Source of the DNA: Euzebya sp.
Lineage (GTDB): Bacteria > Actinomycetota > Nitriliruptoria > Euzebyales > Euzebyaceae
Direction of reading: 5' to 3'
Length of the DNA stretch: 64,000 nt
Assembly: GCF_964222135.1 (NCBI RefSeq)
Contig: NZ_CAXQBR010000023.1
Location: forward strand, 1 to 64,000
A program made the position numbers and the translations under genes. Below the pieces are notes generated by a model. It was not told the origin of the DNA, did not search any database, and saw only the letters and a program-made list of their open reading frames with translations. This document shows, piece after piece, positions 26,464 through 62,883 of this stretch; the stretch's first letter is position 1, and the number at the start of each line of letters is the position of its first letter.

Positions 26464-26537
26464 TGGAGCGGGTGAGGGGAATCGAACCCCCGTATCCAGC
26501 TTGGGAAGCTGGTGTTCTACCATTGAACTACACCCGC
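26464..26537 (-). tRNA. tRNA-Gly (anticodon CCC)
   Basis: A full cloverleaf can be drawn. The acceptor is GCGGGTG with CACCCGC, the anticodon stem is CCAGC with GCTGG around the loop TTCCCAA, and the T arm is GGGGGTTCGATTCCCC. The discriminator is T and CCA is encoded (26464-26466). The integrase gene begins 115 nt past its 3' end, so this is the likely attachment site of the element. Confidence 0.93.
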
Positions 26538-46002: not shown

Positions 46003-49000
46003 TCCGCTCGACGCCTTCGAGCTGACCCCCGTCGCCGACGACGGCGTCGACGTGGTCCTCCGCGGCACGCGTCGCGACGACGGCGCACCCGTCGTGGTCC
46101 GGACCCACGCCGAGGTGCCGCCCACCCCGGCGCACCGGGACCGGCTCCGCCGCCAGCACCTCGCCCACGGCGCCGTCGACCACCCGGGGGTCGCCCGGGT
46201 CCGGGCACTCATCGACGAGCCGCAGCGGGTCGCCGTCGTCCTGACCGACCCCGGCGGCGTGCTGCTCGATCCCGGGGGGGACGGGGTCGCAGAGCGCGCG
46301 GTGGCGTTGGCGGACGGCGTCGCCGCGGCGTTGCAGGCCCTGCACGCCGCCGGCCGCTGGCACCTGGACCTGCACCCGACCGACGTCCTGATCACCGGCG
46401 CCGGTCCGGTGCTCATCTCGACGGGGGCCGCCGCGCCCGCCGAGGGTCCCCTCCCCGACCCGGTCGGGGCGCACCACCCCGGCCGGGCGCCGGAGCGGTC
46501 GGGGTGGCTGCGCCTCGACGTCGACAGCCGGACCGACCAGTACGGCCTCGGGGCCCTCGTGTACGCGTGCCTGACCGGCCGGGCGCCCCACGCCGACCAC
46601 GCCGGGCCGGAACTCGAGGGCTCCCAGGTCGCCCGACGGCCACCGACCGCACGGGAGGTCAACCCAGCGGCAGACCCCACGCTGTCCGACGTGGTCGACC
46701 GCATGATCGCCGTCGACCCGGCCCGGCGGTACCAGGGGTGGACCGCGCTGCGTCGCGCCCTCGCGGCCTGCGGCGGGGGCGGGGCAGCCGACGGGCCGGT
46801 GGCCGCCGACCCGCGGGTCCCCACCCGGTTCGACCTGTCGGGCCGCCTGGTCGGTCGCGACGACGAGGTCTCCGCGCTGCTGCAGGCGTGGCGGCAGGCG
46901 CGCGCGACGGGCACCCCGCGGCTGGTGGTCGTGCGCGGCGAGTCGGGCGTCGGCAAGTCCGCCCTGGTGGCCGAGGCCGTGCGGGCGCTGTCGGCCGCCG
47001 GGGTCGTGTCGGGCGTCGCCGCCTTCGACCTGCTCGAGGTCGGCGCGACGCCGTTCACCGCCGTCGCCCAGGCCGTCGCCGAGGTCGTCGACCACGTCCT
47101 CGGCGAGCCCGACGAGGTCCTCGAGGGCGTGCGGTCGGCCGTGCTCGGCCACCTGCGGGACGACCACGCCCTGGCCGCGACGCTCATGCCCCGGCTCGTG
47201 GACCTGACCGGACCGGCCCCGGCAGACGGGTCGGAGGACGGTGAGCACCGCGGCGCCAGCTTCGGGAGCCAGCGCCGCCGCGCCGTCCGCGCCGTGGTCG
47301 CGACGCTGCGGGCGTTCCTCGACGCCGGGCTCGACCTCGCCGTGGTCCTCGACGACCTCCCGCGCGCCGACGCGGGGACCCTCCAGCTGATCGGCCAGCT
47401 GCTCACCGCGCCCGAGCTCGGGCCGCTCCTGCTGATCGCCACCGCCCGCGACGTCGAGGATGCAGCCGTGCGGGCACGCCTCGACGAGGCGCTCGCCCGG
47501 TGGGAGGCCACCGACGCGGTCACGCAGGTGCCGCTGGCACCCATCTCGGCGGACGCCGTCGCCGAGCTGGTCGCCAAGGCGACCGGTACCGACGTCGACG
47601 TGGCCCGGCCGCTGGCGGACGCCGTCGTCGACCGGTCCGGCGGCAACCCGCTGCTGACCCGCGTCTACCTCGACGAGCTGCACCAACGCGGGACGGTCAC
47701 CTACGACGAGCAGCGGGATCGGTGGCGCTGGGACCTCGAGGAGGTGGATCGGCACCTGCTGGCGGCGTCGGCACCGGACCTCATCGCCGAGCGGGTCGAG
47801 CGTGCCGGGCCGGGGGTCGCCGAGCTGCTCGAGACCGCCGCCCACGCGGGAGGGAGCCTGGACCTGCCCCTGCTCGCCGACGTGCTCGGCATCGACGAGG
47901 CGGTGGTCGCGGCGCTGGTCGAGGCCGCGGTCGACTCCGGGTTGGTGCGTCGGGAGCCGCGGGACCACACCCACCACTTCGCCCACGACCGGATCCGCGA
48001 GGTCGTCCTCGCGCGGGTGCCCGAGGTCGACCGGGCCGCCATGCACCTGCGGATCGGCCGCCAGCTGCGCGCCCGCATCGACGATCCGGCGCGCGTCCGG
48101 GCGACGACGCTGTTCGGCGCGGTGGGCCAGCTGCGGCGGGCCGTCGACCTGATCGACGACCGCGAGGAGATCCTCGACCTGCGCGACCTCTGCGAGGTCG
48201 CCGCCGCGCGCGCCCACCGCGCCGGCGGGTACGACACCGCCCTCGAGCTGCAGCAGACCGCGATCGCGCTCCACGACGCCCACGGGCCCGAGCCGGCGGG
48301 CGACCAGCTGCTCAGGCTGGCCGCGCACAACGCCCTCCTGGCCGGTGAGCCCGAGCTCGTCCAGCACCTCTGCGACCGTGCGCTCGCCGTCACCTCCGAC
48401 CCGTCCGCCCGTGCCCGGGTCCACGTGCTGCTGCTCCACCTGTGGTGGCAGCAGAACCTGCCGCGGGAGATGCTGAAGGCGCTGCGCCGCACCCTCGAGG
48501 AGCTCGGCCAGCCGATCCCCGAGCGCACCTCGCTCACCGACGTGGTCACCGAGCTCGCGGCCACCGCGCGCGCCCTCCGCGGACGGCGGGCGGAGGACCT
48601 CCTCGCCCTGCCCCCGAGCGAGGACCCCACCCTGAACACGGTGATGCGGGTGGCACTCGCCGCGTCGAACGCCGCCTACGTCCACGAGCCGCTCACGCTG
48701 GCGGTCCTCGCGATGCGGGGGACCAGGCAGACCCTCGAGCGCGGCGTGGCCGCGGATTCCGGATACGCGGTGGCCGTGTACGGCATGGTGCTGGCGGGGG
48801 TGCTCGGGCGCCTCCGGTCCGGGTACGACTTCGGTCGCGTCGGCGTCGAGCTGTCCCGCGATCCGCGCTCGGCCGCGCTCGGCGGCACCACGTTCGTCCA
48901 CCAGGGGATGGTCGCGCACTGGGTCCGCCCGCTCGCGGAGACCCTGGAGCCGCTCGAGGCGTCGTTCCGCCGCGGGCTGGCCGCAGGGGACATCGGCTAC

Positions 49001-50938
49001 CCGGTGGCCGGGCTGTTCTGGCACGACCTCCACGCCCTGCTGGTCGGCCGCCCGCTCGACACGGTGATCGCGGACCTCGACGAGCACATCGCCCTGACCG
49101 CCGAGCTGCAGCTCGGCGCGAACCTCGAACGGCTCGTCGTCGTCCGCCAGGTCGCCGAGGAGCTCGTCGACGCGCCCGGGGACGTGCTGGTCGACGGCGC
49201 GTCGTTCTCCTCCACCCGGTGGCTGGAGGACCACCCGCGACCCACCGACCTGCGCCTGTGGATCCACGCGCTGCGCGGCTTCGTCGCGCTCCGCCACGGC
49301 CGCCTCGACGACGCGCTCGCGGCCGTCGAGGGCGGGCACGGCCTGTCCCGCACCGCTCCCGGGCAGGCGGTCGTCGCCCTGCAGGCCCTCAACGAGGGGG
49401 TGGTGTGGGCCGCCACGTCGCGGGGCGCAGCGCGCGCCGAGCGGGCACGTCGGCTGGCCCGCGCGACGGCGGCGCTGGCCCGACTGCGCCGCTGGCGCGC
49501 GCACGCGCCGGCCAACCACGCCCACCGGGTGGCCTGGGTCACCGCGGAGATCGCGGCGGCGACCGGACGGCGGCCGCAGGCGATGGCCGGGTTCGAGCGG
49601 GCGGCCGCGCTCGCCGCCCAGCACGGCTGGCTGTCGGATCTCGGTGTGATCTGCGATCGCGCCGCGTCGTTCCACGCAGCGGCCGGGCAGGACCAGCTGG
49701 CTCGGCACTACGCGCAGCGGGCCCTGGCCGCCCACCGGTCGTGGCGAGCCGACGCCCTCGTCGCCGCGGTGGAGGCCCGGTGGCCCGACGTGGTGGCGGC
49801 GGACCGCGCGATCGCGAGCGGGGGCCGGGGCGAGGCCGGCCTCGCCGACGGCGGCGTGACCCGGGGGGCCGGCCAGACCGCCGGGGCGCTGCTGGGTCGG
49901 CTCATCGAGGTGCTGGTCGAGCGCTCCGGCGCCACCCGCGGCTTCCTGGTCCTCCCCGCCGACGGCGGCCTCGCGGTGGCGGCTGCCGCCCACGTGGACG
50001 GGGCGGACGTGGTCGTCGAGCCCGACCCGGCCGGCGACCTGGACGCCCACCGGGGGCTCAGCACCGCGACGGTCCGCTACGTCGCCCGGACCCGACGGCC
50101 GGTGCAGATCGACGACGTCGCCGCGGACCGGGCACCCCGGCTCGACCCGGGCCTCGCCGCGAGCGGCGCGCGGTCGCTGCTGTGCCTGCCGCTGACCACC
50201 CCGACGGGGCTCACCGGCGTGCTCCACCTGGTCAACGAGCTCACCACCCACGCCTTCGACGCCGAGCGGCTCGAGGCCCTGCGCGTCCTGAGCGTCCAGG
50301 CGGCGATCGCCGTGGAGAACCACCGGCTGACGACCGACACCGAACGGCTCAGCCGGGACCTGCAGGACGTCCGGGAGGCCGCCAACCGCCTGGCCGAGCA
50401 GGCCCTGACCGATCCCCTCACCGGGCTGCCGAACCGCCACCTGCTCGAGGCGCGCCTGGGGGAGGCGCTGGCTGCCGCAGCGGACGGGACGTCCGCCCCC
50501 GCCGTGCTGTTCTGCGACCTCGACGGGTTCAAGGCCGTGAACGACACGCTCGGGCACCAGGCGGGCGACGCGGTCCTCATCGACCTCGCACGGCGGATGG
50601 CCGCCGTGGTCGGACCCGACGACGTGGTCGCGCGCGTGGGCGGCGACGAGTTCGTCGTGCTGGTGGCGGCCGATCCCGGTCCCGAGGAGCTGACCGCGCT
50701 GGCCGAGGCCATCGAGGAGGCGTGCACCCACACCGTCCCGTCGGCGGATGGCGGGATCGGTGTCGGCGTCTCGGTCGGCGCCGCCCGGCCCCACACCGGC
50801 GAGACCACCGCGGCCCTGCTCGCACGGGCCGACGCGGCGATGTACGCCGCGAAGGTCGCGGGCGGCGGCCGGGTGGTGGTCGACGACGAACGCCGTGTGC
50901 GGGCCCGCCGCGCCGAGGACCCGCCGCCGGGGGCGTGA
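45995..50938 (+). CDS. Multidomain signalling protein: pseudokinase - AAA ATPase - helical repeats - GAF - GGDEF
   Basis: 1647 residues. Residues 10-260 form a Ser/Thr-kinase-like domain with catalytic motifs lost: the VAVK Lys is Arg (VVVRTH), HRDxKPxN is HLDLHPTD and DFG is absent, while APE (RAPER) and DSRTDQYGLG remain. An AAA/STAND-type ATPase follows with Walker A GESGVGKS at 315-322 and Walker B-like LAVVLDDLPRAD. Helical repeats run to about 1290, a GAF domain to 1450, then GGDEF from about 1470 with RVGGDEF at ~1547. It should make cyclic-di-GMP under control of a ligand and a partner. The ATG overlaps the flavoprotein stop. Confidence 0.9.
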   Translation: MRDPLDAFELTPVADDGVDVVLRGTRRDDGAPVVVRTHAEVPPTPAHRDRLRRQHLAHGAVDHPGVARVRALIDEPQRVAVVLTDPGGVLLDPGGDGVAERAVALADGVAAALQALHAAGRWHLDLHPTDVLITGAGPVLISTGAAAPAEGPLPDPVGAHHPGRAPERSGWLRLDVDSRTDQYGLGALVYACLTGRAPHADHAGPELEGSQVARRPPTAREVNPAADPTLSDVVDRMIAVDPARRYQGWTALRRALAACGGGGAADGPVAADPRVPTRFDLSGRLVGRDDEVSALLQAWRQARATGTPRLVVVRGESGVGKSALVAEAVRALSAAGVVSGVAAFDLLEVGATPFTAVAQAVAEVVDHVLGEPDEVLEGVRSAVLGHLRDDHALAATLMPRLVDLTGPAPADGSEDGEHRGASFGSQRRRAVRAVVATLRAFLDAGLDLAVVLDDLPRADAGTLQLIGQLLTAPELGPLLLIATARDVEDAAVRARLDEALARWEATDAVTQVPLAPISADAVAELVAKATGTDVDVARPLADAVVDRSGGNPLLTRVYLDELHQRGTVTYDEQRDRWRWDLEEVDRHLLAASAPDLIAERVERAGPGVAELLETAAHAGGSLDLPLLADVLGIDEAVVAALVEAAVDSGLVRREPRDHTHHFAHDRIREVVLARVPEVDRAAMHLRIGRQLRARIDDPARVRATTLFGAVGQLRRAVDLIDDREEILDLRDLCEVAAARAHRAGGYDTALELQQTAIALHDAHGPEPAGDQLLRLAAHNALLAGEPELVQHLCDRALAVTSDPSARARVHVLLLHLWWQQNLPREMLKALRRTLEELGQPIPERTSLTDVVTELAATARALRGRRAEDLLALPPSEDPTLNTVMRVALAASNAAYVHEPLTLAVLAMRGTRQTLERGVAADSGYAVAVYGMVLAGVLGRLRSGYDFGRVGVELSRDPRSAALGGTTFVHQGMVAHWVRPLAETLEPLEASFRRGLAAGDIGYPVAGLFWHDLHALLVGRPLDTVIADLDEHIALTAELQLGANLERLVVVRQVAEELVDAPGDVLVDGASFSSTRWLEDHPRPTDLRLWIHALRGFVALRHGRLDDALAAVEGGHGLSRTAPGQAVVALQALNEGVVWAATSRGAARAERARRLARATAALARLRRWRAHAPANHAHRVAWVTAEIAAATGRRPQAMAGFERAAALAAQHGWLSDLGVICDRAASFHAAAGQDQLARHYAQRALAAHRSWRADALVAAVEARWPDVVAADRAIASGGRGEAGLADGGVTRGAGQTAGALLGRLIEVLVERSGATRGFLVLPADGGLAVAAAAHVDGADVVVEPDPAGDLDAHRGLSTATVRYVARTRRPVQIDDVAADRAPRLDPGLAASGARSLLCLPLTTPTGLTGVLHLVNELTTHAFDAERLEALRVLSVQAAIAVENHRLTTDTERLSRDLQDVREAANRLAEQALTDPLTGLPNRHLLEARLGEALAAAADGTSAPAVLFCDLDGFKAVNDTLGHQAGDAVLIDLARRMAAVVGPDDVVARVGGDEFVVLVAADPGPEELTALAEAIEEACTHTVPSADGGIGVGVSVGAARPHTGETTAALLARADAAMYAAKVAGGGRVVVDDERRVRARRAEDPPPGA

Positions 50939-50963
50939 CGGGTGGCCGGGGCGCCCGACCCGG

Positions 50964-51710
50964 TCAGGCCGCTCGGACGGGGGTGAGGGGTCCGGCGAGC
51001 GCCGGCGGGCCCAGAAGGGCCGGCGTGGCCGAGCCGGAGGGGTGCTGGTGCCACCCGTCGGCGTCGATCGTGGTGGCGGCGCCGGCGCCCAGGACCAGGT
51101 GCTCGCCGCCGTGGCTGACCACGCCGGTCCCCTCGTCGATGCCGAGGACGGCGAGGCCGTCGTAGCTGCGCTGCCGCCGGACGGCGACGCGCCGCATGAC
51201 CGAGGAGCGGGCGACGAGCCGGTCGAAGTGGGGGACCACGACGTACCCCTCGAGCGGTCCGAGGCCGGGGGTCAGCCCGAACGGGGACGGCGGGACCAGC
51301 CGGAGCCGCCACGCCATCATCGCCATCGCCCCGGCGGAGGAGCCGGACAGCGCGGCGCCGGCGCGCCACCGCTCCACGATCGCGTCCCACACCGGCGACG
51401 CGCCCAGCCGGCGGACCAGGGCGGCGGGGACCCCGCCGGTCAGCACGACCACGTCGGCGGCGGCGACCGCGTCGACGGCGGCGGTGACGTCCTCCGGCGC
51501 GACCGCGGTGGCGCGGGCGCCGAGAGATGCCCACCAGGTCCGGGCCAGGGCGATCGTGGCCGGGCGGGTGCCGGGCAGCGACGCGGCCGGCACGACGACC
51601 ACGCGGGGGCGGGCGACGCCGGTCCGCTCGAGCAGCCAGCGGTCGACGGGGCGGCAGGGCTCGCGGTGCTCACCGCCGCCGAGCAGCGCCAGGGGCCCCG
51701 GGGCGGTCAC
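50964..51710 (-). CDS. Peptidase S51-like (cyanophycinase/dipeptidase E-type) protein
   Basis: 248 residues, GTG start overlapping the upstream gene's stop (GTGA). It begins LALLGGGEHREP, has VVVLTGGVPAALV, the nucleophile elbow SGSSAGAMAM with its Ser, and PHFDRLVAR with the His. This is the Ser-His/Glu arrangement of S51 enzymes. Family members cleave beta-aspartyl or Asp-X peptides; cyanophycinase is a longer relative. Coupled to an LPG-synthase-like membrane protein. Confidence 0.82.
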   Translation of the reverse strand: MTAPGPLALLGGGEHREPCRPVDRWLLERTGVARPRVVVVPAASLPGTRPATIALARTWWASLGARATAVAPEDVTAAVDAVAAADVVVLTGGVPAALVRRLGASPVWDAIVERWRAGAALSGSSAGAMAMMAWRLRLVPPSPFGLTPGLGPLEGYVVVPHFDRLVARSSVMRRVAVRRQRSYDGLAVLGIDEGTGVVSHGGEHLVLGAGAATTIDADGWHQHPSGSATPALLGPPALAGPLTPVRAA

Positions 51711-52894
51711 GCCGCCACCAGCTCTCGGTCGTCCGCGGGCAGGCCAGCGGCCACGTCAGCGGGTACCAGGCCGTCGGGCACCCCGTCCGCCTCCGGCGGC
51801 ACGGTCGGCGCGGGCACCGGCTCGACCCGGCGGCGGACGAGCACCGCGATCGCGGGCACCACCCCCGCGGCGACGGGCAGCCAGAACGATGCGAGCCGGT
51901 AGATCAGGACGCCGGCGATCGCGACGCCCGCCGGCACCCCGAGCGCGGTGAACGCCGCCGCGACGGTGGCCTCGAAGACGCCGATCCACCCGGGGGTCAG
52001 CTCGGGTGCGGTGTTGACCACGTTGATCGTGGCGTAGCCGATGGCGAGGGCGGGCAGCCCGAGCGGGTGGCCGAGGGCCGCGAAGACGAGCGCGAGCGCG
52101 GCGGCGTCCACCGACCAGGCCGCCAGCGACCACGCCGCGCACCTCCACAGCGACCGGCGCGCCGGCGTCCGGGCGCTGGCGCCGGCGAGTCCCCCGACCG
52201 CCTGCACCGCGGCGTCCCGCACGCGGCCCGGCAGCCGCCGGGCGAGGCGTGCCAGCCGATCGCGGACGGCCGGGCTGCGCGTCCCCAGCAGGGCGATCAG
52301 CGCAGCGACCCCCAGCGGGATGGTCGCGGCCAGCAGGCCGATGGCGGCGTCCGGCAGGCCTCCCGACGCCGCGGCCACCGCGATGCCGCCGACCAGCAGG
52401 ACCGACAGCGTGAGGGTGGTGACGGCCCAGGACAGGACCATCGCGGCCGCGGCGACCCCGGGGGAGCTGCCGTGGCGGACCAGCTCGGTGCCGCTGAGCA
52501 CCCCGCCGGCGTAGCCGCCGCCGGGGACCACCCGGCTCGTGGTGAAGGCGGCCATCGAGGTCCGCTGCGCGGCCAGGTGGCCGATCCGGCCGCCGGCGGC
52601 TGCAGCGGCGGTCCGCAGGACCTGGGCCAGCGCGACGCACCAGGCGATCTGGAGGGTCACGAGCCCGACGACGGCGAGTGGTGGCAGACCGGTCAGCAGC
52701 TGCCAGGCGCGGACGAGCTCGTCGCGGCCCAGGCCGCCGGTCCTGACCGCGAGCGCCGCGAGCGCGCCCGCGCCGGCCAGCTTGGCGGTGCGCCGCAGCC
52801 AGCGGGGTGGTCGGCGCGTCCGCCTCGACGGGGGGACGGGCGAGGGGTGGCGCGCGGGGGAGGGGCGGACCGGGTTCGCGGTTGGTGCGTGCAT
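51707..52894 (-). CDS. LPG-synthase-type integral membrane protein (UPF0104/AglD-like)
   Basis: 395 residues from ATG 52894 (GTG 52909 possible). A basic, Pro-rich N-terminus precedes about seven to eight membrane helices. The flippase-like family is supported by AAFTTSRVVPGGGYAGGVL, INVVNTAPELTPGWIGVFEA and the overall helix spacing. Members include the membrane domain of MprF and glycan-lipid proteins such as AglD. It has no soluble aminoacyl-transfer domain, so a lipid-handling role is likelier. Overlaps the S51 gene by 4 nt. A palindrome is 56 nt upstream. Confidence 0.85.
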   Translation of the reverse strand: MHAPTANPVRPSPARHPSPVPPSRRTRRPPRWLRRTAKLAGAGALAALAVRTGGLGRDELVRAWQLLTGLPPLAVVGLVTLQIAWCVALAQVLRTAAAAAGGRIGHLAAQRTSMAAFTTSRVVPGGGYAGGVLSGTELVRHGSSPGVAAAAMVLSWAVTTLTLSVLLVGGIAVAAASGGLPDAAIGLLAATIPLGVAALIALLGTRSPAVRDRLARLARRLPGRVRDAAVQAVGGLAGASARTPARRSLWRCAAWSLAAWSVDAAALALVFAALGHPLGLPALAIGYATINVVNTAPELTPGWIGVFEATVAAAFTALGVPAGVAIAGVLIYRLASFWLPVAAGVVPAIAVLVRRRVEPVPAPTVPPEADGVPDGLVPADVAAGLPADDRELVAA

Positions 52895-52949
52895 GGGTCG
52901 AGCGTCCACCGCCCCGGCTGTGGTCGGCGTCCCCCGCCGGAGGGGTCCT

Positions 52950-52973
52950 CGGACCCCCTACGGCCGTAGGGTC
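52950..52973. promoter_or_regulatory. Palindrome before the LPG-synthase-like operon
   Basis: CCCTACGGCCGTAGGG (52956-52971) is a perfect 16-bp palindrome, with outward similarity to the site at 55043-55070. It is 56-79 nt upstream of the ATG at 52894 and also abuts the stop codon of the response regulator. Probably an operator. Confidence 0.6.
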
Positions 52974-53649
52974 AGCGGCCCGGCTCGACCAGGCCGGACT
53001 CGTAGGCGAACACGATCGCCTGCGCCCGGTCGCGGAGGTCGAGCTTCATCAGGATGCGGCTGACGTGGGTCTTCACCGTCTGCTCGGCCAGGACGAGCTC
53101 GCCGGCGATCTCGCCGTTGGACATGCCGTGGGCGACCAGGACCAGCACCTCGGACTCGCGGTCGGTCAGCTCGGCGACCCTGGCCGGGGTCGCCGCCCGA
53201 CGGCCCCCGGCGGCGGCGAAGTCGGCGATCAGACGGCGGGTGATGGCCGGCGCGATCACCGCGTCGCCGCGGGCGACCACCCGGACGGCGTCGGCCAGCT
53301 CGACCGCTGAGGCGTCCTTCAGGAGGAACCCGCTGGCCCCGGCCTTGAGCGCGTCGTAGACGTACTCGTCGAGGTCGAACGTGGTCAGCACCACGACGCG
53401 CGGGTGCCCGCCCGGAGGGGGGTCGCCGGACAGGATGGCGCGGGTGGCCGCCAGCCCGTCGAGGCCGGGCATGCGCACGTCCATGAGGATGACGTGCGGG
53501 GCGAGGGACGCGGCCCGCTCGATGGCCTGGCGGCCGTCGGCGGCCTCGCCGACCACCTCGATGTCGGCCTGGCCGGACAGGAACGCGGCGAAGCCGGTGC
53601 GGACCATGCCCTGGTCGTCGACGATGAGCACGCGGATGGGGTCCGTCAC
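52972..53649 (-). CDS. NarL/FixJ-type response regulator
   Basis: 225 residues, GTG start overlapping the kinase stop. The receiver domain has DDQ near residue 11, phospho-acceptor Asp57 in ILMDVRMPGLDG, and LLKDAS with Lys. The LuxR HTH is LTDRESEVLVLVAHGMSNGEIA with VKTHVSRILMKLDLRDR. It is the likely partner of the kinase next to it and a candidate binder of the two flanking palindromes. Confidence 0.93.
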   Translation of the reverse strand: MTDPIRVLIVDDQGMVRTGFAAFLSGQADIEVVGEAADGRQAIERAASLAPHVILMDVRMPGLDGLAATRAILSGDPPPGGHPRVVVLTTFDLDEYVYDALKAGASGFLLKDASAVELADAVRVVARGDAVIAPAITRRLIADFAAAGGRRAATPARVAELTDRESEVLVLVAHGMSNGEIAGELVLAEQTVKTHVSRILMKLDLRDRAQAIVFAYESGLVEPGR

Positions 53650-54986
53650 GCCGGGACCAGGGGGAGCCGGGCCTGGACGAGGAACCCGCCGTCGGCGGCC
53701 GGGCCGGCGTGCAGGTCGCCGCCCAGGGCGGCGGCGCGCTCGCGCATGCCGACCACCCCGTGGGGCGTGCTGCCGACCTCGACCGGCGGTCCGCCCTCGC
53801 CGGGGCCGTTGTGGACCTCGAGGGACAGCACCGGCGGGTCGATCCGGTGGGCGATGGTGATGGCGACGGCCGACCCGGGGGCGTGGCGCATGACGTTCGA
53901 CAGCGCCTCCTGGAGGATCCGGTAGGCCGACACGTCCACGCCGGTCGCCAGGCGGGTGGGGGTCCCGAGCACCTCGACGGTGACCGCCAGGCCGGCTGCG
54001 CGGGCGGTGGTCAGCAGGCCGTCCAGGTCGTCGAGGCCCGGGGTGGGTGACAGAGCCGCCCCGGTGGAGGGATCGCGGAGGACCCCCAGGATCCGCCGCA
54101 TCTCCGCCAGGCTGTCGAGGGCCGTGGCCCGGATCTGGGCGAGGTCGCCGCGCAGCGCATCGGGGTCGTGGCCGTGGGTCAGCGGGGCGGCCTCCGCCTG
54201 GATCGCGATCGCGGACATGTGGTGGGCGACGACGTCGTGGAGCTCCCGGGCGATGCGGGTCCGCTCCTCGAGCACCGCCCGGGCGGCGCGCTGCTCGGCC
54301 GACCGCGCCTCCTCCGCGAGGAGCGCACCCTGGGCCTGCCGGCGGCCGCGCACGGTCGCGCCGTAGGTCGCCGCCGCCGCGACGGTGAGGACGCTCCAGA
54401 CCCAGACCACGTCGGGGTGGTCGACGGACGCGGTGCTGCCCAGGATCGCCAGGGCGACCGCCGCGCAGGCCACCGTCCCGTAGGCGATGTCCTGCCGGGT
54501 CCGGGACACCGCCGCGTACACGGTCAGGGGAACCCCGATGGCGCTCGCCGCCAGCATCGGCAGGTCGTCGAGCAGCGGTGCGACCAGGCCCGCGGCGAGG
54601 ACCCCGCCCGCGAGCCCCGCGCGGAACGCCCACAGGGGCGCCCGACGGACCAGCGCGACGGGTGCGGCGGCCAGGACGGCGGCCAGGAAGATCACCGGCC
54701 CGCCGACGTCGGGTCCCGGCGGATCGTTGCGGGAGTTCAGCTCGACGGTGGAGATCAGGAGCAGCAGCAACGCCACCGCGACCGGGGTCGCCTCGACGGC
54801 CCCGTGGACGAGCCGGCCGACCCGACCCTCCCGCCTGCGCGTCGGCGGAGGCGGCCCGGCCACGGCGATCACCGCGGCATCGGCCACCTGACCGGCGACC
54901 ACCCGCGCCGCGCGTGCGACGCGCGCGCCCGCCGCGCGCAGCAGGTCGGGCGCGCGCCGTCGGTCCTGGGCGGTCTCGTCGGGCAC
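53646..54986 (-). CDS. Sensor histidine kinase (DesK/LiaS-like)
   Basis: 446 residues, GTG 54986. After a basic N-terminus there are about five or six membrane helices in residues 66-210 with short loops, so sensing is within or near the membrane. The HisKA_3 domain has His250 in RIARELHDVVAHH; the ATPase domain contains SNVMRHAPGSA and GVVGMRERAAALGG. It phosphorylates the response regulator of the overlapping gene. Confidence 0.93.
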   Translation of the reverse strand: MPDETAQDRRRAPDLLRAAGARVARAARVVAGQVADAAVIAVAGPPPPTRRREGRVGRLVHGAVEATPVAVALLLLLISTVELNSRNDPPGPDVGGPVIFLAAVLAAAPVALVRRAPLWAFRAGLAGGVLAAGLVAPLLDDLPMLAASAIGVPLTVYAAVSRTRQDIAYGTVACAAVALAILGSTASVDHPDVVWVWSVLTVAAAATYGATVRGRRQAQGALLAEEARSAEQRAARAVLEERTRIARELHDVVAHHMSAIAIQAEAAPLTHGHDPDALRGDLAQIRATALDSLAEMRRILGVLRDPSTGAALSPTPGLDDLDGLLTTARAAGLAVTVEVLGTPTRLATGVDVSAYRILQEALSNVMRHAPGSAVAITIAHRIDPPVLSLEVHNGPGEGGPPVEVGSTPHGVVGMRERAAALGGDLHAGPAADGGFLVQARLPLVPA

Positions 54987-55072: not shown

Positions 55073-56155
55073 TCACCGCGGGTCGAGGTGGCCGGGGCAG
55101 GCCGCCGACAGCAGGGCGTAGGGGTTGACGTCGTCGGCGCGACGCCCGTCGGGTCGCCACTGGATGTGCAGGTGAGGAGGGGTGGTGGCGGCGTTGCCGG
55201 TGCGACCGACGGTGCCGATGACCTGGCCCCGGACCACGTGGTCGCCGACGGCGAGGCCGGGCGCGAAGGACCGCAGGTGCGCGTAGTACCAGTGGTGCCC
55301 ACCCCTCCCCTCCAGCCAGATGACGTTGCCGCCCAGGCCTGCGCCGGTGCGGACGGCGGCGATCGTGCCGTCCTCGACGGCGAGGAGCGGCGTGCCCTCG
55401 GGGGCGAACAGGTCCTGGCCGAGGTGGACCCGGCCCCCCGATCGGGGGAAGTGCCAGGAGTCGATGAAGTGGACGGGGGGCACGACCGGGCAGGCGAGCG
55501 GCCCGTGGTCGCCGCGCACGGTCGCGGGGGCGGCCTCCGCCGCGTAGCGGTCGGCCCAGGTGAGCACCGCCGTGACGTAGGCGTCGGACCGGTTGTACGC
55601 CCGCACGGCCCGACGCCGGCCCGCGTCGCTGCCGAGGTCGTCTGCGGCTGCGGCGCACAGGTACGCCGCCGCGGCGGCTGCCGCGTCGAACAGGTCGTGC
55701 GGGTCGACACGACCGTCGGCGTTCCCGTCGCGTCCCCACCTCGCCCACGTCTGGGGGATGAACTGCAGCGGGCCGACGGCCCGGTCCCAGCGCGCGTCGG
55801 TGTCGAGTCGGCCGCCGTCGGAGTCCGCGATCGGCCGGGTGCCGGGGAGGGACCCGTCCAGCACCGGGCCGAGGATGGGCGGACGGACCAGGCCGCGCGC
55901 GTCGGGTGCCGAGCCGCCGTGGCGGCCGTGGTCGGTCTCGACCTTGGCGATCCCCGCGAGGAGCGACCACGGGACGGCGCAGCGGCCGTCCGCCGTCGAG
56001 GCGGCCACGTACGCCTGCACGGCCACCTCCGGGATGTCCTCGTGGGCGGGGACGGCGGTCGGTGCGCTGCTCCTGCCCGGGGACAGCACCACGACGACCC
56101 CCAGGACGAGGGCGAGCGGCACCGCCACGACCGTCCCGACCAGGGCGCGGGTCAC
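55073..56155 (-). CDS. Cell-wall hydrolase: lytic transglycosylase-like plus M23 peptidase (VirB1/Orf14-like)
   Basis: 360 residues, GTG start overlapping the preceding stop. One N-terminal membrane helix is followed by an SLT-like domain (PWSLLAGIAKVETDHG with catalytic Glu, then VGPLQFIPQTWARWG). A C-terminal M23 peptidase domain has HLGQDLFAPEGTPL and HLHIQWRPDG with zinc ligands. In conjugation operons such an enzyme opens peptidoglycan for the channel. In Tn916 the same place is taken by a transglycosylase with an NlpC/P60 domain; here M23 replaces it. Last gene of the operon. Confidence 0.87.
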   Translation of the reverse strand: MTRALVGTVVAVPLALVLGVVVVLSPGRSSAPTAVPAHEDIPEVAVQAYVAASTADGRCAVPWSLLAGIAKVETDHGRHGGSAPDARGLVRPPILGPVLDGSLPGTRPIADSDGGRLDTDARWDRAVGPLQFIPQTWARWGRDGNADGRVDPHDLFDAAAAAAAYLCAAAADDLGSDAGRRRAVRAYNRSDAYVTAVLTWADRYAAEAAPATVRGDHGPLACPVVPPVHFIDSWHFPRSGGRVHLGQDLFAPEGTPLLAVEDGTIAAVRTGAGLGGNVIWLEGRGGHHWYYAHLRSFAPGLAVGDHVVRGQVIGTVGRTGNAATTPPHLHIQWRPDGRRADDVNPYALLSAACPGHLDPR

Positions 56156-58062
56156 GGGGACGCCGACCCGGTCGGCGGGGGTGGGGCCGCCGACGCGGAC
56201 GGGGTCGCCGACGCGGACGGGGTCGCCGACCGGGCGAGAGCGCGCATGCGCGCGGCCCGGCCCGCGGATCCGATCCCCTGCACGGCCGACCCGGCCGCCT
56301 GGACCGCCGCGCCGCCGACGACCTTGGCCGCTCGCGCCCCCGCGTGCAGGTCCGCGGCCACCATCGCGGCGCCCCATGCCGCGCGGCCGGCGACCTGGGC
56401 GGGTCCGCGCCCGACCGGTCCGACATCCACGCCGGGGCCGGCGGCGCGCGATGCGACGTCGTGGGCGCCGCGGCGCATGGCCGCGAAGATCCGTCCCCGC
56501 AGGATCACGAGCGACCACGCGACGACGACGGCCGCCAGCATCCGGACGGCCAGCCCCGTGCGGGGGAGGTCGCCGCCGGCCGGGTCGGAGGCGACGTCGC
56601 CGGCCAGCACCGCGGACACGCTGGTGGCGAGCAGCGCGACGAAGAACCCCGAGCCGATGAACAGGACCGCGACCTTCGCGAGGCTGTGGAACCACCGGGC
56701 CAGCACCGCCCGGCCGGCCCCCGGCGAGATGCCGGCCACCAGGGCGAAGGGCATCGCCATCACCAGCAGCGCCCCGGCGACCTGGGCGACCAGGAGGGTG
56801 CCGGCGGTCAGGGCGATCGCGGCCACGAACGCCACGGCGACGACCGCGTACAACCAGCTGCCGGCCAGGCGGTCGATAGGGACGCCCTCGTTGAAGTCGG
56901 CCATCTCGTCGCAGCCGGCGGCCCGCATCAGGTCGCGGGGCGCGTCGTCGTCCGCCCAGCTGCCCGCCGCGACCAGCGCGTCGGCGACCTGGCGGCAGCC
57001 ACCGGTCGGGACGGTCCCCCACTGCAGCGCGAGGTAGGGCTCGTGGACGAAGCGCTCGACGAGCACGGCGTCGAACACGTGGGGTGTCTCGACCGCACCG
57101 GCCTGGCAGCCGTCGCCGGACACCTCGGGCAGCGCGACGTCGGTCTGTGCGAGGGCGACGGCGCCGGCGGTGAGGTCCGCCATGGCGGACAGCCCCGCGC
57201 ACACCGTCTCCTCGGCTCGCGTCAGCGCCGCGTACCCGACCGCCGCGACGAGGAGGGCGACGAGCACCTCGGCGGTGGCCGCCTGGGCGCGGTGGCGGAA
57301 GATCTGCCAGCCGGCGTGGGCGACCGCGATCAGCAGGAGGAGGCGGCGGATGCCGTGCGCGAACAGCCCGTCGCTGTAGCGCTGGGTCAGCGACTCGACG
57401 CTCGGGGCCAGCCAGCGGCCCACGTCGAAGCGCAGGACCACGTCGAGGATCCAGCCACCGCCGGCGATGGCCCACTTGCCGATCGCGAAGCCGATGCGGT
57501 TGAGGGTGTGCACCGGCGCGAGGTGGTCGAAGAGGTTGACGGAGGTGCCGAGGTCGTAGTGCCCCCACGGGGCGCCGGACTCCCGCGGGCCGACGAGGCC
57601 GCTCAGGACATCGACGCCGCCGCGCACGGGGACGTCGCCACGCTCGGCGCGGTCCGCGATCTCGGCGGTGATCTCGGCGACGGGCCGATCGGGTTCCTGC
57701 GTCGGGATCGGAGGCGGGAGCGGCGCCCCGGTCGGATCCGCGTCGGTGGGACCGGGGTCGGTCGGGGGGTCGGGCGCGGTGCTGGCCTCGGGATCGCTGG
57801 CCTCATGATCGCTGGCCTGGGGATCGCTGGCCTGGGGGTCGGCCGCGGACTCGGGATCGGCGTCCGGTGGCGCGACGAGGGGGGTCACGGATGCCGGGGG
57901 CATCTCCCCGGAGGGTGTGGGCGAGGGGCTGGCGCTCGCCGTGGGCGAGGGCGCCGCCGGGTCCTGTACCGAGGCCGTGTCCTGGGCCGAGGCCGTGCCG
58001 ATGGAGAGCACGCCGACGAGCAGGACCGCGACGGACAGGCGGGCGCCCCGCGTCGCCGTCAC
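56152..58062 (-). CDS. Polytopic membrane protein, VirB6/TrbL-like (Tn916 Orf15-like)
   Basis: 636 residues, GTG 58062. A signal-like start and a disordered Pro/Asp/Ser stretch (repeats such as SDPQASDPQASDHEASDPEA, 57780-57840) come first. Residues about 210-560 hold six or seven membrane helices with a large cysteine-containing external loop (GDGCQAGA, TGGCRQVAD, AAGCDEMADF). The end is Ala/Arg-rich. VirB6 proteins build the inner channel. Assigned by topology and its place after the ATPase; pairwise similarity cannot be judged by eye. Confidence 0.75.
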   Translation of the reverse strand: MTATRGARLSVAVLLVGVLSIGTASAQDTASVQDPAAPSPTASASPSPTPSGEMPPASVTPLVAPPDADPESAADPQASDPQASDHEASDPEASTAPDPPTDPGPTDADPTGAPLPPPIPTQEPDRPVAEITAEIADRAERGDVPVRGGVDVLSGLVGPRESGAPWGHYDLGTSVNLFDHLAPVHTLNRIGFAIGKWAIAGGGWILDVVLRFDVGRWLAPSVESLTQRYSDGLFAHGIRRLLLLIAVAHAGWQIFRHRAQAATAEVLVALLVAAVGYAALTRAEETVCAGLSAMADLTAGAVALAQTDVALPEVSGDGCQAGAVETPHVFDAVLVERFVHEPYLALQWGTVPTGGCRQVADALVAAGSWADDDAPRDLMRAAGCDEMADFNEGVPIDRLAGSWLYAVVAVAFVAAIALTAGTLLVAQVAGALLVMAMPFALVAGISPGAGRAVLARWFHSLAKVAVLFIGSGFFVALLATSVSAVLAGDVASDPAGGDLPRTGLAVRMLAAVVVAWSLVILRGRIFAAMRRGAHDVASRAAGPGVDVGPVGRGPAQVAGRAAWGAAMVAADLHAGARAAKVVGGAAVQAAGSAVQGIGSAGRAARMRALARSATPSASATPSASAAPPPPTGSASP

Positions 58063-60449
58063 GCCGCCGCCTCGGGGGTCGTGTCGAGCGCGGCCCGGAC
58101 GTCGCTGGACGCGGCCGGCAGCACCTGCACCACGCCGATGCGGTCGGCGACGTCGCGGAACAGGCACTGGCCCGTCTGCAGCTCGGCGCTCAGCAGGCCG
58201 ACCAGGTCGTCGGTCGCGTCGAGCCCCATGAAGCGGAGCGCGGCCGGGGCGGCCCCGCGGCTCTGGCGGAACAGCGCGCGCATGCCGAGCAGGTGGCTGA
58301 GGGCGTCGTCGCCGAGGTCGTCGGGGTGCTGGCTCAGCAGCCACACGGCGGCGTTGTGCTTCCGACCGTCGCGGATGGAGTCGAGCAGCAGCTGGCGGCC
58401 CTGCGGGCTCGCGGTGAGCGCCCACGCCTCGTCGACCAGCGTCGCCCCGAACGTCCGCGGGTCCGCGAAGGTCAGGGCCCGGGCCACGGCCGCCACCAGG
58501 TACAGCAGCGCCTGGGCGAAGAGCTGCTCGGGCAACACTTGGCGCGCCAGGTGCTCGTGGACGACCGCGTCGCGGTCCGGGAGGGACAGGCCAGCGGCGT
58601 GGAAGCAGATGTAGTCCGCGTCGAGGCGCAGGGGTGGCCGGTCGCCGAAGACGAGCTGGGCGAGCGGCTGGTCGGCGTGGACCGCCAGCTTGCGCCGCAA
58701 CCCGACGGCCTCGGGATCAGCCGTCGACTCGAGCGCCGCGAGGACGTCGACGAGCCGCCCGCCGCCAGCCGCCACGCGGCGGACGGCGGCCGCCAGCACC
58801 GCCCCGTCGACATCCGAGGGGGTCGTGCGGGTCAGGAGCGTCAGGAAGCCGAGCGCGACGCGGATGCCGTCCTCCCCGGCGAACACCCGGAGCGGGTCCA
58901 GGCCGACGTCGCCCGGCTCGTCCAGATCGACCACGCAGGTGTCGGCCCCGGCGTCGGCGGCCATCGCACCGGCGAGGCGGACGTACTCGCCGCTCGCGGT
59001 GCGGTCCAGCGTGACCACCCGGCCGCCTCGCGCCACGGTGCCCAGCGCCAGCCGCTTGACGAAGTAGGACTTGCCGCTCCCCAGCGCGCCGAAGACCCCG
59101 AGAGACCCGGAGCGGTTCGTGGCCGGCCCGTGTGCGGGGTCGATCAGGACGGCCCGCGCCTGCCCGCTGTGGGCGTCGACCCCGATCGGGATGCCGCGCG
59201 GGTCGCCGACCGCGCTGCCCGCGACCGGGGCGCCGGCAGCCAGGTCGCGGGGCAGGAGGTGCTGGGTGTAGTCGTCGCACACCGGGGGCGCGGCGGCGCC
59301 GGGCAGCGCGGCCGTGTGCAGGGCGACCTGCCCGCCGGTCGGGCGGTGGACGGCGTACCCCCACGGCTGGAGCAGGTCACCGAGCTGGGCGGCGCGCGCA
59401 TCGACCTCAGCGGGGGTCCGGCCGGTGACGCTGAAGGCGATCGTGACCTGCAGCTCCGGGTCCCCGGGGTTGGCCGCCAGGGCGGCCTGCTCGTCGTCGA
59501 CCCCGTCGAGCGCCGCCGCGAGGCTCCGGGGCGGTCCGGCCGGCTCGCCCTCGTACTCGGCGTACTGGGCGGTCAGCTGGCGCTGCTGGCGACGGGCGCG
59601 GAGCTGCGCCTCGGCGTTGCCGACGGCGTGGATGCGCGCCACCCAGTCCACGCCGAACGGGGCGAGGTCCGCCACCGTGAACCACTCGCCGCCGCCCGGG
59701 TGCTGGAAGGCCGACGGCATCTCGGAGACGACAGCGGTGGCCTGGTACCCGGTGCCGCGCTCGGTGTCGATCCGCAGGTAGCGCCGGTGTCGCGGCCGGT
59801 CGGGGTCGTCACCCCGACCGCCCTCCCACAGGACCGCGTCGTCAGGTGGGGTCCCCACGGGTGTGGTGTGCCCTGCGGGCGGCGGAGGATCGGCGATGCC
59901 GCGGAGGACGGCGCGCCGGTACAGCCACGCGATCTCAGGGGGTGCGACCGGGGTCACGTGGAGGACGCGCTCGAGGCGCTGGCCGAGGTCTCGTGTGGCC
60001 TGGACGGCGACACGGCCGTCCGCGCGCGCAGGACGGGGTCCCCCGGCCCCGAAGCGCCGGGCCACCGACTCGACCGCCGCGGCGAGCACGGTGCCCGCGC
60101 GGGGCGGCACGATCCGGGCCGCCACGTACAGGCGGCGCTCCACGCAGCCGTACCCCACCAGCGCGGCCAGGTCGGCAGACGCGGCGCGCCGCCACCGCTC
60201 GGCGGCGCGGGCCGGCACCCCGGCGGACACGCGTCGGGCCAGCTCCTCTGCCGGGACGGGCACGCAGGTGCTGATCAGCTGCGCGTCGGCGGGTAGGGCG
60301 ACCAACGCCTCGCGGACGCGGGCGTGCAGGGCGAGCTTGTCGTCGGTCGACGCGAAGGGGTACGTCGGCAGTCCCACGCGCCAGACGGCCCACACCGAGC
60401 CGTCCCAGGCCCACACGCGGTTGGCCTCCAGGCGTCGGGCGGGGGTCAC
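58059..60449 (-). CDS. VirB4-like transfer ATPase (Tn916 Orf16-like)
   Basis: 796 residues, GTG start. The N-terminal ~400 residues are family specific (LPTYPFASTDDKLALHARVR). The RecA-like motor has Walker A GALGSGKS near residue 456, Walker B-like FGATLVDEAWAL near 672, and HNAAVWLLSQHPDDL after it, as in the VirB4/TraC/TraE group. It powers assembly or substrate movement. It is the only ATPase of the operon; no coupling ATPase of VirD4 type is in the window. Its start is preceded by a hairpin that overlaps the ribosome site. Confidence 0.88.
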   Translation of the reverse strand: MTPARRLEANRVWAWDGSVWAVWRVGLPTYPFASTDDKLALHARVREALVALPADAQLISTCVPVPAEELARRVSAGVPARAAERWRRAASADLAALVGYGCVERRLYVAARIVPPRAGTVLAAAVESVARRFGAGGPRPARADGRVAVQATRDLGQRLERVLHVTPVAPPEIAWLYRRAVLRGIADPPPPAGHTTPVGTPPDDAVLWEGGRGDDPDRPRHRRYLRIDTERGTGYQATAVVSEMPSAFQHPGGGEWFTVADLAPFGVDWVARIHAVGNAEAQLRARRQQRQLTAQYAEYEGEPAGPPRSLAAALDGVDDEQAALAANPGDPELQVTIAFSVTGRTPAEVDARAAQLGDLLQPWGYAVHRPTGGQVALHTAALPGAAAPPVCDDYTQHLLPRDLAAGAPVAGSAVGDPRGIPIGVDAHSGQARAVLIDPAHGPATNRSGSLGVFGALGSGKSYFVKRLALGTVARGGRVVTLDRTASGEYVRLAGAMAADAGADTCVVDLDEPGDVGLDPLRVFAGEDGIRVALGFLTLLTRTTPSDVDGAVLAAAVRRVAAGGGRLVDVLAALESTADPEAVGLRRKLAVHADQPLAQLVFGDRPPLRLDADYICFHAAGLSLPDRDAVVHEHLARQVLPEQLFAQALLYLVAAVARALTFADPRTFGATLVDEAWALTASPQGRQLLLDSIRDGRKHNAAVWLLSQHPDDLGDDALSHLLGMRALFRQSRGAAPAALRFMGLDATDDLVGLLSAELQTGQCLFRDVADRIGVVQVLPAASSDVRAALDTTPEAAA

Positions 60450-60455
60450 CGCCCC

Positions 60456-60479
60456 CTCCCCTCGCTGGCGCGAGGGGAG
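60456..60479 (-). other. Hairpin over the ribosome site of the VirB4-like gene
   Basis: Perfect 10-bp arms CTCCCCTCGC (60456-60465) and GCGAGGGGAG (60470-60479), 4-nt loop. On this strand the 3' arm runs into GGGGAG-GGGGGC, the ribosome site of the GTG at 60449. It could limit ATPase translation. Confidence 0.5.
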
Positions 60480-60519
60480 CGCCCCCCGGCCTGTCCCCTG
60501 ACCGCTCGCACGCTCACGG

Positions 60520-60885
60520 TCACAGCTGGCGGAGGGTGAAGGTCAACGGGCGCTCGGCCCCGACGCGTCGGCCCGCCCGCAGCCCTCGGCGTGGCCGCGT
60601 CGCGTACGCGAGCAGGCCCATGGCGTAGCGGAGGGGGGACCGGCCCTCGACGCGGGCGTGGCGCACGGCCCAGGCGGCCAGGACCGGCAGGACCATCGCG
60701 ACGACCAGGTCGAGCGGCCCGGGGAGGACCGCCCACCACCGCCGGGTCAGGATCTCTGCGGTGGCGAGGCCCACCAGGACAAGGACCTGCACCGGGGTCA
60801 GCGGGGTAGGCAGCGCGTAGCCGCCGACCTTGCCGATCACGAGCGGGAAGCGTCGGGCGTGGGTGTAGGTCCGGCACTCGATCAC
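60520..60885 (-). CDS. TcpE-family conjugal transfer membrane protein
   Basis: 121 residues, GTG 60885 overlapping the previous stop (GTGA). It opens with the TcpE pattern TYTHARRFPLVIGKVGGYAL, then two membrane helices (VQVLVLVGLATAEIL, LDLVVAMVLPVLAAWAV) and a basic end. TcpE of pCW3 and Orf17 of Tn916 are small membrane parts of the channel, placed directly before the ATPase as here. Confidence 0.82.
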   Translation of the reverse strand: MIECRTYTHARRFPLVIGKVGGYALPTPLTPVQVLVLVGLATAEILTRRWWAVLPGPLDLVVAMVLPVLAAWAVRHARVEGRSPLRYAMGLLAYATRPRRGLRAGRRVGAERPLTFTLRQL

Positions 60886-61130
60886 GGCGCACCGCCCGCG
60901 GCACCGGTCTGGATCCAGGTGTCCGCGTCGACGTCGACGCGCTGCTCGAGCACGTCGATGTTGGCGGTGGCCCACACGACGACGCCGGCCATGACGACCG
61001 CCGTCACGGTGGGCACCAGGGCCTTGGTCCGCCACCACACGGCGGCCACGTAGATCGCGGCGGCCGCGGCGATGGCGGCGGTGATGACGCTCGAGACGTC
61101 GGCGATCATCCGGGTGAGGAAGTCGGTCAT
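60882..61130 (-). CDS. Small two-helix membrane protein of the secretion operon
   Basis: 82 residues. Two hydrophobic helices (SSVITAAIAAAAAIYVAAVWW and ALVPTVTAVVMAGVVVWATA) with short ends. Size and topology match VirB2-like pilins or the small membrane proteins of actinobacterial conjugation operons; a link with VirB2 is only a guess. It starts 1 nt after the TcpC-like gene and overlaps TcpE by 4 nt. Confidence 0.72.
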   Translation of the reverse strand: MTDFLTRMIADVSSVITAAIAAAAAIYVAAVWWRTKALVPTVTAVVMAGVVVWATANIDVLEQRVDVDADTWIQTGAAGGAP

Positions 61131-61131
61131 G

Positions 61132-62016
61132 TCAACGCTCTCCTGTCGGGGGTGTCGTGTCTGTCGGGGGTGTCGGAGGTGCCGGGGCCCGCAGGGGGAG
61201 CGCCGGCAGGAGCTGGGCGACCTGCCACCGTGCGTCGGCGCGCCGGAGCAGCAGGGGGTAGTGCATGAGCGCGACCGCGCCGTCGTCCCGCACCACGAGG
61301 ACCTCGGCGAGCACCGCCACGTGCCGGTCGTCCACCGCGCCGCTGGCGATGCGCCGCAGCTCGACGTCGGCGACGGCCGGCGGTCCGGCGGGCACGTCGG
61401 CGACGGCGGCCACGTAGCGGTCCACGTCCCCCGCGGTCCCGAGCCACGCGGCGAGGAACCCCGCCGTCGTCACCGCGACCTCGTCGTCGGAGGGGGGGCG
61501 CAGCGGGGAGACGGCCGGCGGGGTCGCGAGCCGGGACCCCGGACCTGGCCCGACGAGGGCGGGGAGGGTCTCGACCACCAGGTCACCATCGACCTCGGCG
61601 ACGGTCACCTGCCAGCGCTCGACCCCCCGGTCGCGTGCGACGCCGACGACCACGCCCCACCGCCCCCGGCCGGCCGGTCGCGCCGCGACGGCGCTGATCT
61701 GCCCCAGCGGCGCCGCGGCAGCGCGGGCGGCCGCGATCTGCTGGGCGGTCGTGAGGCCCTCGAGCACCTCGGCGGGGGTCGGCGCCGCCACGGCAGGCCG
61801 CCATGCGGGCTCACCGGCGGGGGCGCGCAGGTGGACGGCCACCGCCAGCTCGGCGACGCCCTCGACGCCGACCGGCACGCCGTCGTCGGCCACCGCCGAC
61901 CCGGGGGCGGTCGCGGAGCTGATCAGCGCCACCGCTCCCAGCACGGGACCGAGGGCGACGACGGTCCAGAGGACCCCGGCGGCGAGGCGGACGCGCGGTG
62001 ACGGTCCCACCCTCAC
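61132..62016 (-). CDS. TcpC-like conjugal transfer protein (VirB8-like fold)
   Basis: 294 residues, GTG 62016 overlapping the LysM gene. One N-terminal helix (AAGVLWTVVALGPVLGAVALI), a linker and then two beta-alpha (NTF2-like) domains, with ATTAGFLAAWLGTAGDVDRY-like sequence (positions about 183-203) and VAVLAEVLVVRDDGAVAL. TcpC/Orf13 proteins sit on the outer membrane face and join the channel parts. A Pro/Thr-rich end. The family call is by pattern and context. Confidence 0.8.
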   Translation of the reverse strand: MRVGPSPRVRLAAGVLWTVVALGPVLGAVALISSATAPGSAVADDGVPVGVEGVAELAVAVHLRAPAGEPAWRPAVAAPTPAEVLEGLTTAQQIAAARAAAAPLGQISAVAARPAGRGRWGVVVGVARDRGVERWQVTVAEVDGDLVVETLPALVGPGPGSRLATPPAVSPLRPPSDDEVAVTTAGFLAAWLGTAGDVDRYVAAVADVPAGPPAVADVELRRIASGAVDDRHVAVLAEVLVVRDDGAVALMHYPLLLRRADARWQVAQLLPALPLRAPAPPTPPTDTTPPTGER

Positions 62017-62756
62017 CCCTCCCCACCGGTCGATGGCAGGTGCAGCACCTCGCCGGGGTGGATCAGGTCGGGGTCACCGGAGGCGACGTCGTTGGCGGCG
62101 ATCAGCCGCACCCAGTACGCGTGGACGTCACGGTCCGACGGCGGCTCGGCGGACGCGCCGGCCACGACGGCGCGGGCGATGACCCACAGGTTCTCGCCCG
62201 CGGCGACGACGTGCGAGGTCGGTCCCGAGGAGTCAGGTGCCGGGTCCTCGGGTGCGGGCCCCTCGTCGGTGGCGGTCTGCGCCTCCGCGGGGGTCACCGG
62301 CGCGACCGGGACGGGCGTGGTCCCGGGGAGCGGGACCGGCTGCACGGGCGGCAGGACGACCGCCGGCCCCGGGGCGGGATCCTCGTGCGGATCGGCGTCC
62401 TGGGCGGCAGCGGGCTGGCTGGGGGCGGCGACCGCGGCAGCGGGACCGCTCGCGAGGGCGAGCACCAAGGAGGTCCCGACCGCGCGGACCACGACGCGCT
62501 GGACCCACGCCGGCGCCAACCGCCGACCCCGCGGACCGCGTCCGCGCGCGGTGACCACGACGTCGTGGAGGGTGCCGACCAGCAGCCACCACGACGCGGC
62601 CCACGCCCCGAGGTGCACCACCGCGACCAGGACCTCACCCAGGTCGGCACCGACCAGCGGGTCCGCGCCGAGGTCGTCGCGCACGGCCGCTGCGGCGCGG
62701 CTGGTGAACACCACCGCGAGCACCTCGGCGGCCAGGACCGTCAACAGTCGTCGCAT
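62013..62756 (-). CDS. Membrane protein with C-terminal LysM domain, first gene of the secretion operon
   Basis: 247 residues, ATG 62756. Three N-terminal hydrophobic segments (residues 1-25, 45-65, 85-110) precede a Pro/Ala/Asp-rich linker and a LysM domain from about 185: SHVVAAGENLWVIARAVV, then IAANDVASGDPDLIHPGEVL. LysM binds peptidoglycan, so it may place the machine at the wall. LysM proteins are not part of classical Tn916 operons. The gene begins a run of seven genes, most overlapping by 4 nt. Confidence 0.82.
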   Translation of the reverse strand: MRRLLTVLAAEVLAVVFTSRAAAAVRDDLGADPLVGADLGEVLVAVVHLGAWAASWWLLVGTLHDVVVTARGRGPRGRRLAPAWVQRVVVRAVGTSLVLALASGPAAAVAAPSQPAAAQDADPHEDPAPGPAVVLPPVQPVPLPGTTPVPVAPVTPAEAQTATDEGPAPEDPAPDSSGPTSHVVAAGENLWVIARAVVAGASAEPPSDRDVHAYWVRLIAANDVASGDPDLIHPGEVLHLPSTGGEG

Positions 62757-62883
62757 GCCGGCGACGCTAGACCTCTACAACATCGCTCTTCAAGTGCAGA
62801 CCTGTGGAGAACCACGTAAAACCATGATGCGGTGGGCGTGTAGCCTGCCGGTGATCACCACCCCGCCCCCAGGAGGAGCACCA

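Follow-up and report, generated by a model that had tools for sequence, protein, structure and literature searches.

Why would a bacterium keep the pore of a conjugation system when the parts that hand DNA to that pore are gone? The question is raised by seven contiguous minus-strand genes at 55073-62756 of the window, the whole 64,000-nucleotide stretch of a Euzebya sp. contig (C23 in our numbering) that was analysed. The operon is present in all five Euzebyaceae genomes compared: the window's own (G000, a 5.06-Mb draft, 97% complete, in 111 contigs), three further Euzebya genomes (G001-G003) and one other family member with a 2.1-Mb genome (G004). A second contig of G003 agrees at 100% with the Euzebya pacifica plasmid NZ_CP031166.1 over a 15-kb query, in keeping with the genus Euzebya. 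Since all five keep the pore without its DNA-handling parts, it probably does another job, such as protein export. We read the operon as a conjugation pore domesticated by its host, and give this reading a probability of about 0.62.

The pore genes

The genes run in the order LysM, TcpC, two-helix, TcpE, VirB4, VirB6-like, SLT+M23. Neighboring genes share 4 nucleotides at four of the six junctions, and the other two junctions have gaps of 1 and 70 nucleotides, much as a preliminary description of this DNA had said (one strand, mostly 4-nucleotide overlaps).

62013..62756, minus strand: LysM-type membrane protein, three predicted transmembrane stretches and a C-terminal LysM
61132..62016, minus strand: TcpC/VirB8-like protein, a transmembrane helix and two NTF2-like domains
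60882..61130, minus strand: protein of 82 amino acids with two predicted transmembrane helices, in the TcpD position
60520..60885, minus strand: TcpE (VirB3-like) membrane protein, PF12648 at 36.8 bits (cut-off 29.9)
58059..60449, minus strand: VirB4/TcpF-type ATPase, PF12846 at 188 bits
56152..58062, minus strand: VirB6-like polytopic membrane protein, six predicted transmembrane stretches
55073..56155, minus strand: membrane-anchored wall hydrolase, SLT transglycosylase plus M23 endopeptidase (PF13406, PF01551)
62757..62883, no strand: divergent intergenic region of 127 bp between the LysM gene and an SDR gene, also in G001 and G003

The TcpE, VirB4, M23 and SLT identities given earlier all score above curated profile cut-offs. 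The tcpE gene lies directly upstream of virB4, as in MPF-FA pores. VirB4 has as its best NCBIfam match the TcpF of pCW3 (NF052333, E 1.2e-44), its profile finds the solved VirB4 4AG5 (E 3.2e-9), and its Walker motifs are intact (GALGSGKS, residue 454, for Walker A; VDEAW, residue 672, for Walker B). The wall hydrolase matches M23 (76.9 bits) and SLT_2 (38.4 bits), with its catalytic residues, Glu73 and the zinc motifs HLGQD and HLH, in place.

Three more of the earlier assignments also stand. The TcpC-like protein has no direct profile match, but PF12642 is matched by four of its nine aligned homologues, and the closest fold in the PDB to its AlphaFold model (predicted local distance difference test score, pLDDT, 77) is 3UB1, TcpC itself (Foldseek E 3e-6; VIA Z 12.5, root-mean-square deviation 3.3 over 105 residues). 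The VirB6-like protein reaches E 1.4e-6 with NF046089 (CD3337/EF1877), under NCBI's curated cut-off, and 18.8 bits with PF04610 (TrbL), also sub-threshold; because both scores fall short, its assignment follows from E-value and position. In the window's LysM protein, PF01476 scores 15.7 bits against a cut-off of 20.9, but three of six homologous members match LysM. This protein, presumably a wall anchor, is kept in the four Euzebya genomes, in a further genome of the class (G010) and in one actinobacterial metagenome-assembled genome (MAG). The two-helix protein is retained at the same position among relatives (61-68% identity within Euzebya, one pair 96%). From its position, the 127-bp region is presumably the operon promoter.

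Judged by these genes, the operon is the predicted pore of a Tn916/pCW3-type (MPF-FA) secretion system. It shares with Tn916 orf17-16-15-14-13 and pCW3 tcpC-H the order TcpE-VirB4-VirB6-hydrolase, the TcpC fold and a TcpF-like VirB4. It differs in placing TcpC first, in adding LysM, in lacking TcpA, a MOBT relaxase and an integrase, and in being resident. The label Tn916-type thus fits content and order; the nearest relatives by sequence are actinobacterial plasmid and integrative and conjugative element (ICE) systems that carry a replication-relaxation protein. PADLOC returned one weak ATPase match, mad8, and nothing else.

Descent and chromosomal setting

In G001, G002 and G003 the operon has on one side the SDR gene known from the window (79-82% identity) and on the other hspR-dnaJ-grpE-dnaK, which bears out the preliminary view that the flanks are core chromosome. 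Gene-order comparison found a conserved locus in these three genomes, but G004 carries TcpC-2TM-TcpE-VirB4-VirB6-M23 elsewhere, flanked by YibE/F and PfkB genes. In a tree of 26 VirB4 sequences the five family members form one clade (support 96/99), with G010, the Nitriliruptorales and actinobacterial MAGs and the Streptomyces plasmids outside it.

Between the deeper Euzebya pairs VirB4 is 66-69% identical, close to its neighbors DnaJ (64-71%) and GrpE (57-70%). In the closest pair, G001/G003, VirB4 has a ratio of nonsynonymous to synonymous divergence (dN/dS) of 0.11, the hydrolase one of 0.21 and the two-helix protein one of 0.05; the dN/dS argument draws on that pair alone, the synonymous divergence of deeper pairs being high. 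Neighbor-like divergence and low dN/dS are what vertical inheritance with function would lead one to expect. A decaying remnant of an integrated conjugative element would likewise lack the downstream half of its module, but these genes are open and conserved in four species, under purifying selection and with intact catalytic motifs, which makes decay highly improbable.

No integrase was recognized in the 20-kb operon neighborhoods of G001-G003, where the flanks are the SDR gene and the dnaK operon. The preliminary description had named a relaxase and an integrase with direct repeats just outside the window as what would overturn it; for the relaxase profiles searched, no such arrangement was found around the operon. 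Its statement that the window holds no relaxase, VirD4 or integrase stands for relaxases and coupling ATPases near the operon, but the window does contain a tyrosine integrase at 25224-26249 (minus strand), 29 kb from the operon and beside tRNA-Gly(CCC) at 26464-26537. At 64% identity, its nearest retrieved match is an integrase that lies between genes for MOBF relaxases on contig C17, and no obvious flanking repeat was found around the integrase/tRNA-Gly element. We rejected this integrase as part of the operon, as it adjoins the tRNA gene beyond the dnaK operon and belongs to a separate integrated element. The operon as an ICE component was rejected on its conserved flanks.

The window also has about 11 kb of extra genes (43819-54986) between hspR (43339-43746) and the hydrolase gene. 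These are unique to G000 among the four Euzebya genomes, hspR and the hydrolase gene adjoining in G001-G003, and encode a 1647-amino-acid protein, an S51 peptidase, an LPG synthase-like protein and a LuxR-type two-component pair.

The DNA-handling half and its mobile relatives

The three features of a conjugative element were looked for at this locus and none was found: no coupling ATPase (TcpA, VirD4 or HerA-like) accompanies the operon, no relaxase lies in the same element, and no integrase with attachment repeats marks the ends. Linear plasmids of Streptomyces and Kitasatospora (for example NZ_CP107737.1 and NZ_CP108405.1) carry a related module with VirB4 at 33-34% identity. A large ATP/GTP-binding protein comes right after their hydrolase gene, and a replication-relaxation protein lies nearby, directly next and together with ParB in the fullest modules. 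The full module, with ATPase, replication-relaxation protein and ParB, is also found in G010 and in the Nitriliruptorales MAG LH_M21 (VirB4 44-49% identical to that of the operon); in G010 a tyrosine integrase is adjacent. All share the order TcpC-2TM-TcpE-VirB4-VirB6-wall hydrolase with the Euzebya operon, which has none of the other parts.

The large ATPase of these relatives has no clear family match in profile searches. Its model is poor (pLDDT 46), with HerA and the VirD4-type Cag-beta as best PDB matches, so a HerA/VirD4-like coupling ATPase is a tentative label; the resemblance agrees with it and proves little. A profile built on this protein scores 1144 bits in G010 and has no match anywhere in G000-G004. 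The replication-relaxation family PF13814 is likewise found in G010 and not in G000-G004, and the Tn916-type MOBT relaxase family PF02486 was not found in G000-G004. The FtsK family is represented in G000 by a single 849-amino-acid frame, which we read as probably FtsK itself and not a TcpA-type coupling ATPase. Neither a PF12696 coupling protein nor a MOBF relaxase was found in G004. MOBless type IV secretion systems (T4SSs) have been defined by a virB4 with no relaxase within 60 open reading frames, and are mostly read as protein exporters (PMC3158045); for the relaxase profiles searched, the operon fits this definition.

That the operon is resident in the chromosome and not mobile is well supported by its shared position across four Euzebya genomes, its vertical pattern of divergence, the purifying selection on it and the missing DNA-handling parts. 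An ancestor may have gained an actinobacterial module of TcpC-2TM-TcpE-VirB4-VirB6-hydrolase with coupling ATPase, replication-relaxation protein and ParB, of which the Euzebya family would have retained the pore half and shed the DNA-handling half.

Pore genes without a recognizable partner occur elsewhere. Of the 66 genomes sampled from the class, a VirB4 match of any strength occurs in 16, and in 10 of these it is strong. Diverged pore operons (29-30%) lie in G016 (L027:8065-15644) and G015 (L026:13467-19621), with an extra gene of about 195 amino acids between VirB6 and an SLT-only hydrolase; no coupling ATPase was seen with these two operons. Of the 52 loci followed downstream by 7.5 kb of sequence or more, 30 have a recognizable coupling ATPase there, and five of the remaining 22 have a Walker-motif protein of 670-750 amino acids at the ATPase position. 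Nine Streptomyces loci among the 22 have the pore genes but lack a coupling ATPase for about 10 kb (L074, L075, L077, L080, L085, L088, L089, L104 and L056), and are possibly further relaxase-less versions. Pore-only versions may thus have originated repeatedly.

Several points weigh against domestication. The draft state of G000 is one. The relaxase negatives cover the profiles searched, MOBQ, MOBV, MOBH and MOBC not being among them, and PF03432, not found in G000, was searched for in that genome alone. No cargo gene accompanies the operon. The G004 operon stands at a different place and lacks the SLT domain, which leaves a small chance that it was acquired independently. Finally, VirD4 proteins, one or two in number, and several MOBF relaxases are encoded elsewhere in the Euzebya genomes.

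The last point carries an explanation of its own, in which MOBF mobilizable elements and a VirD4-type ATPase dock on the resident channel as a mating pore shared in trans. The whole-genome search proposed in the preliminary description gave 12 MOBF (TrwC) hits and one VirD4 protein (contig C34) in G000, with none near the operon. The 12 hits are spread over contigs C3, C17, C28, C29, C30, C34, C38, C46, C50, C51 and C105 (L030-L039). Several of them have a tyrosine integrase next to them and no T4SS genes, and both MOBF and VirD4 occur in all four Euzebya genomes. Twelve hits in one 5-Mb genome amount to numerous apparent integrative mobilizable elements, which is unusual because MOBF is said to be rare in Gram-positives (PMC12857230). 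That these relaxases are served by the operon pore was our first idea, and it was weakened once VirD4 was placed in another system. The C34 VirD4 lies within a second T4SS (L030:5689-13259) that has an SCO6880-family member scoring 397 bits, a VirB4 of its own and a TrbL/VirB6-like gene. SCO6880-type T4SSs with VirD4 are present in all four Euzebya genomes (also L126, L128 and L131; main genes about 50-84% identical), usually near a MOBF relaxase. Ten class genomes have a PF12696 VirD4, and nine of them carry a MOBF relaxase within about 8-31 kb of it on the same contig. In G003 over 1.1 Mb separates the operon from the closest MOBF gene. The operon also occurs without MOBF in G004 and G010, and MOBF without the operon in G005, G007, G009 and G011. 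Because VirD4 sits in the SCO6880-type system near MOBF genes, that system is the more natural partner of the MOBF elements, and a shared mating pore is unlikely.

What the channel may do

If the proteins act as their known families do, VirB4 would drive a channel at the membrane, built of VirB6, TcpE and the two-helix protein. TcpC would line the wall space with its NTF2 domains, the SLT+M23 enzyme would open a hole in the peptidoglycan, and the LysM protein would tie the complex to it.

The preliminary description had suggested a resident system for protein secretion or DNA release. Residence stands, on flanks, vertical divergence and selection, but DNA release is disfavored because a DNA-exporting T4SS requires a relaxase plus a coupling ATPase, and this system has kept neither of its own. 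ComB-type uptake operates without VirD4 or a relaxase, and a VirB4/TcpE pore is present here. No recognized competence gene adjoins the operon, however, and DNA uptake or release of a ComB-like or gonococcal-island-like kind seems quite unlikely. With its own coupling ATPase and relaxase missing, a domesticated pore would rather serve a protein cargo or an envelope role than its own DNA. Protein export or envelope work is the more likely role, ahead of DNA release, and protein secretion is plausible.

The envelope role has a precedent in Streptomyces cmdABCDEF (SCO4126-4131), a resident, relaxase-less, T4SS-like membrane operon whose deletion impairs sporulation and chromosome segregation and leaves plasmid transfer unaffected (PMC2782261). 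A comparable complex, acting in septation or segregation instead of export, would suit the wall-cutting and wall-binding parts of the Euzebya operon. The cmd genes, however, belong to the SCO6878/6880 lineage, are of other gene families and have a developmental role proven by deletion (PMC2782261). Identity with cmd was rejected by family, as SCO6880 has no match among the seven proteins of the operon. The operon is also missing in most of the class. A cmd-like function is therefore rather doubtful.

Patescibacteria offer another comparison. Their chromosomal MPF-FATA T4SS, mostly without relaxase and inferred to be co-opted, resembles the operon in being monoderm-type, and differs in having VirB2-like pilins, in being phylum-wide and in being essential for epibiotic growth in one strain (PMC12102498). 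The same paper cites Ptl and Brucella VirB as systems without a coupling ATPase. We suggest, tentatively and against the odds, that a lineage of free-living monoderm actinomycetes uses a Tn916-class pore that has neither relaxase nor coupling ATPase as a dedicated machine for protein export or contact-dependent antagonism, in which VirB4 would select the cargo or delivery would take two steps.

A literature search on Euzebya and type IV secretion found no paper. Non-conjugative T4SSs are best known in diderm pathogens, and the clear monoderm cases are those of Patescibacteria and, in a different lineage, Streptomyces cmd; the Euzebya operon adds to these relaxase-less systems. A conserved pore without either DNA-handling part in a cultivable genus makes the question of its cargo open to experiment, and the intact relatives of the operon supply a before-and-after comparison.

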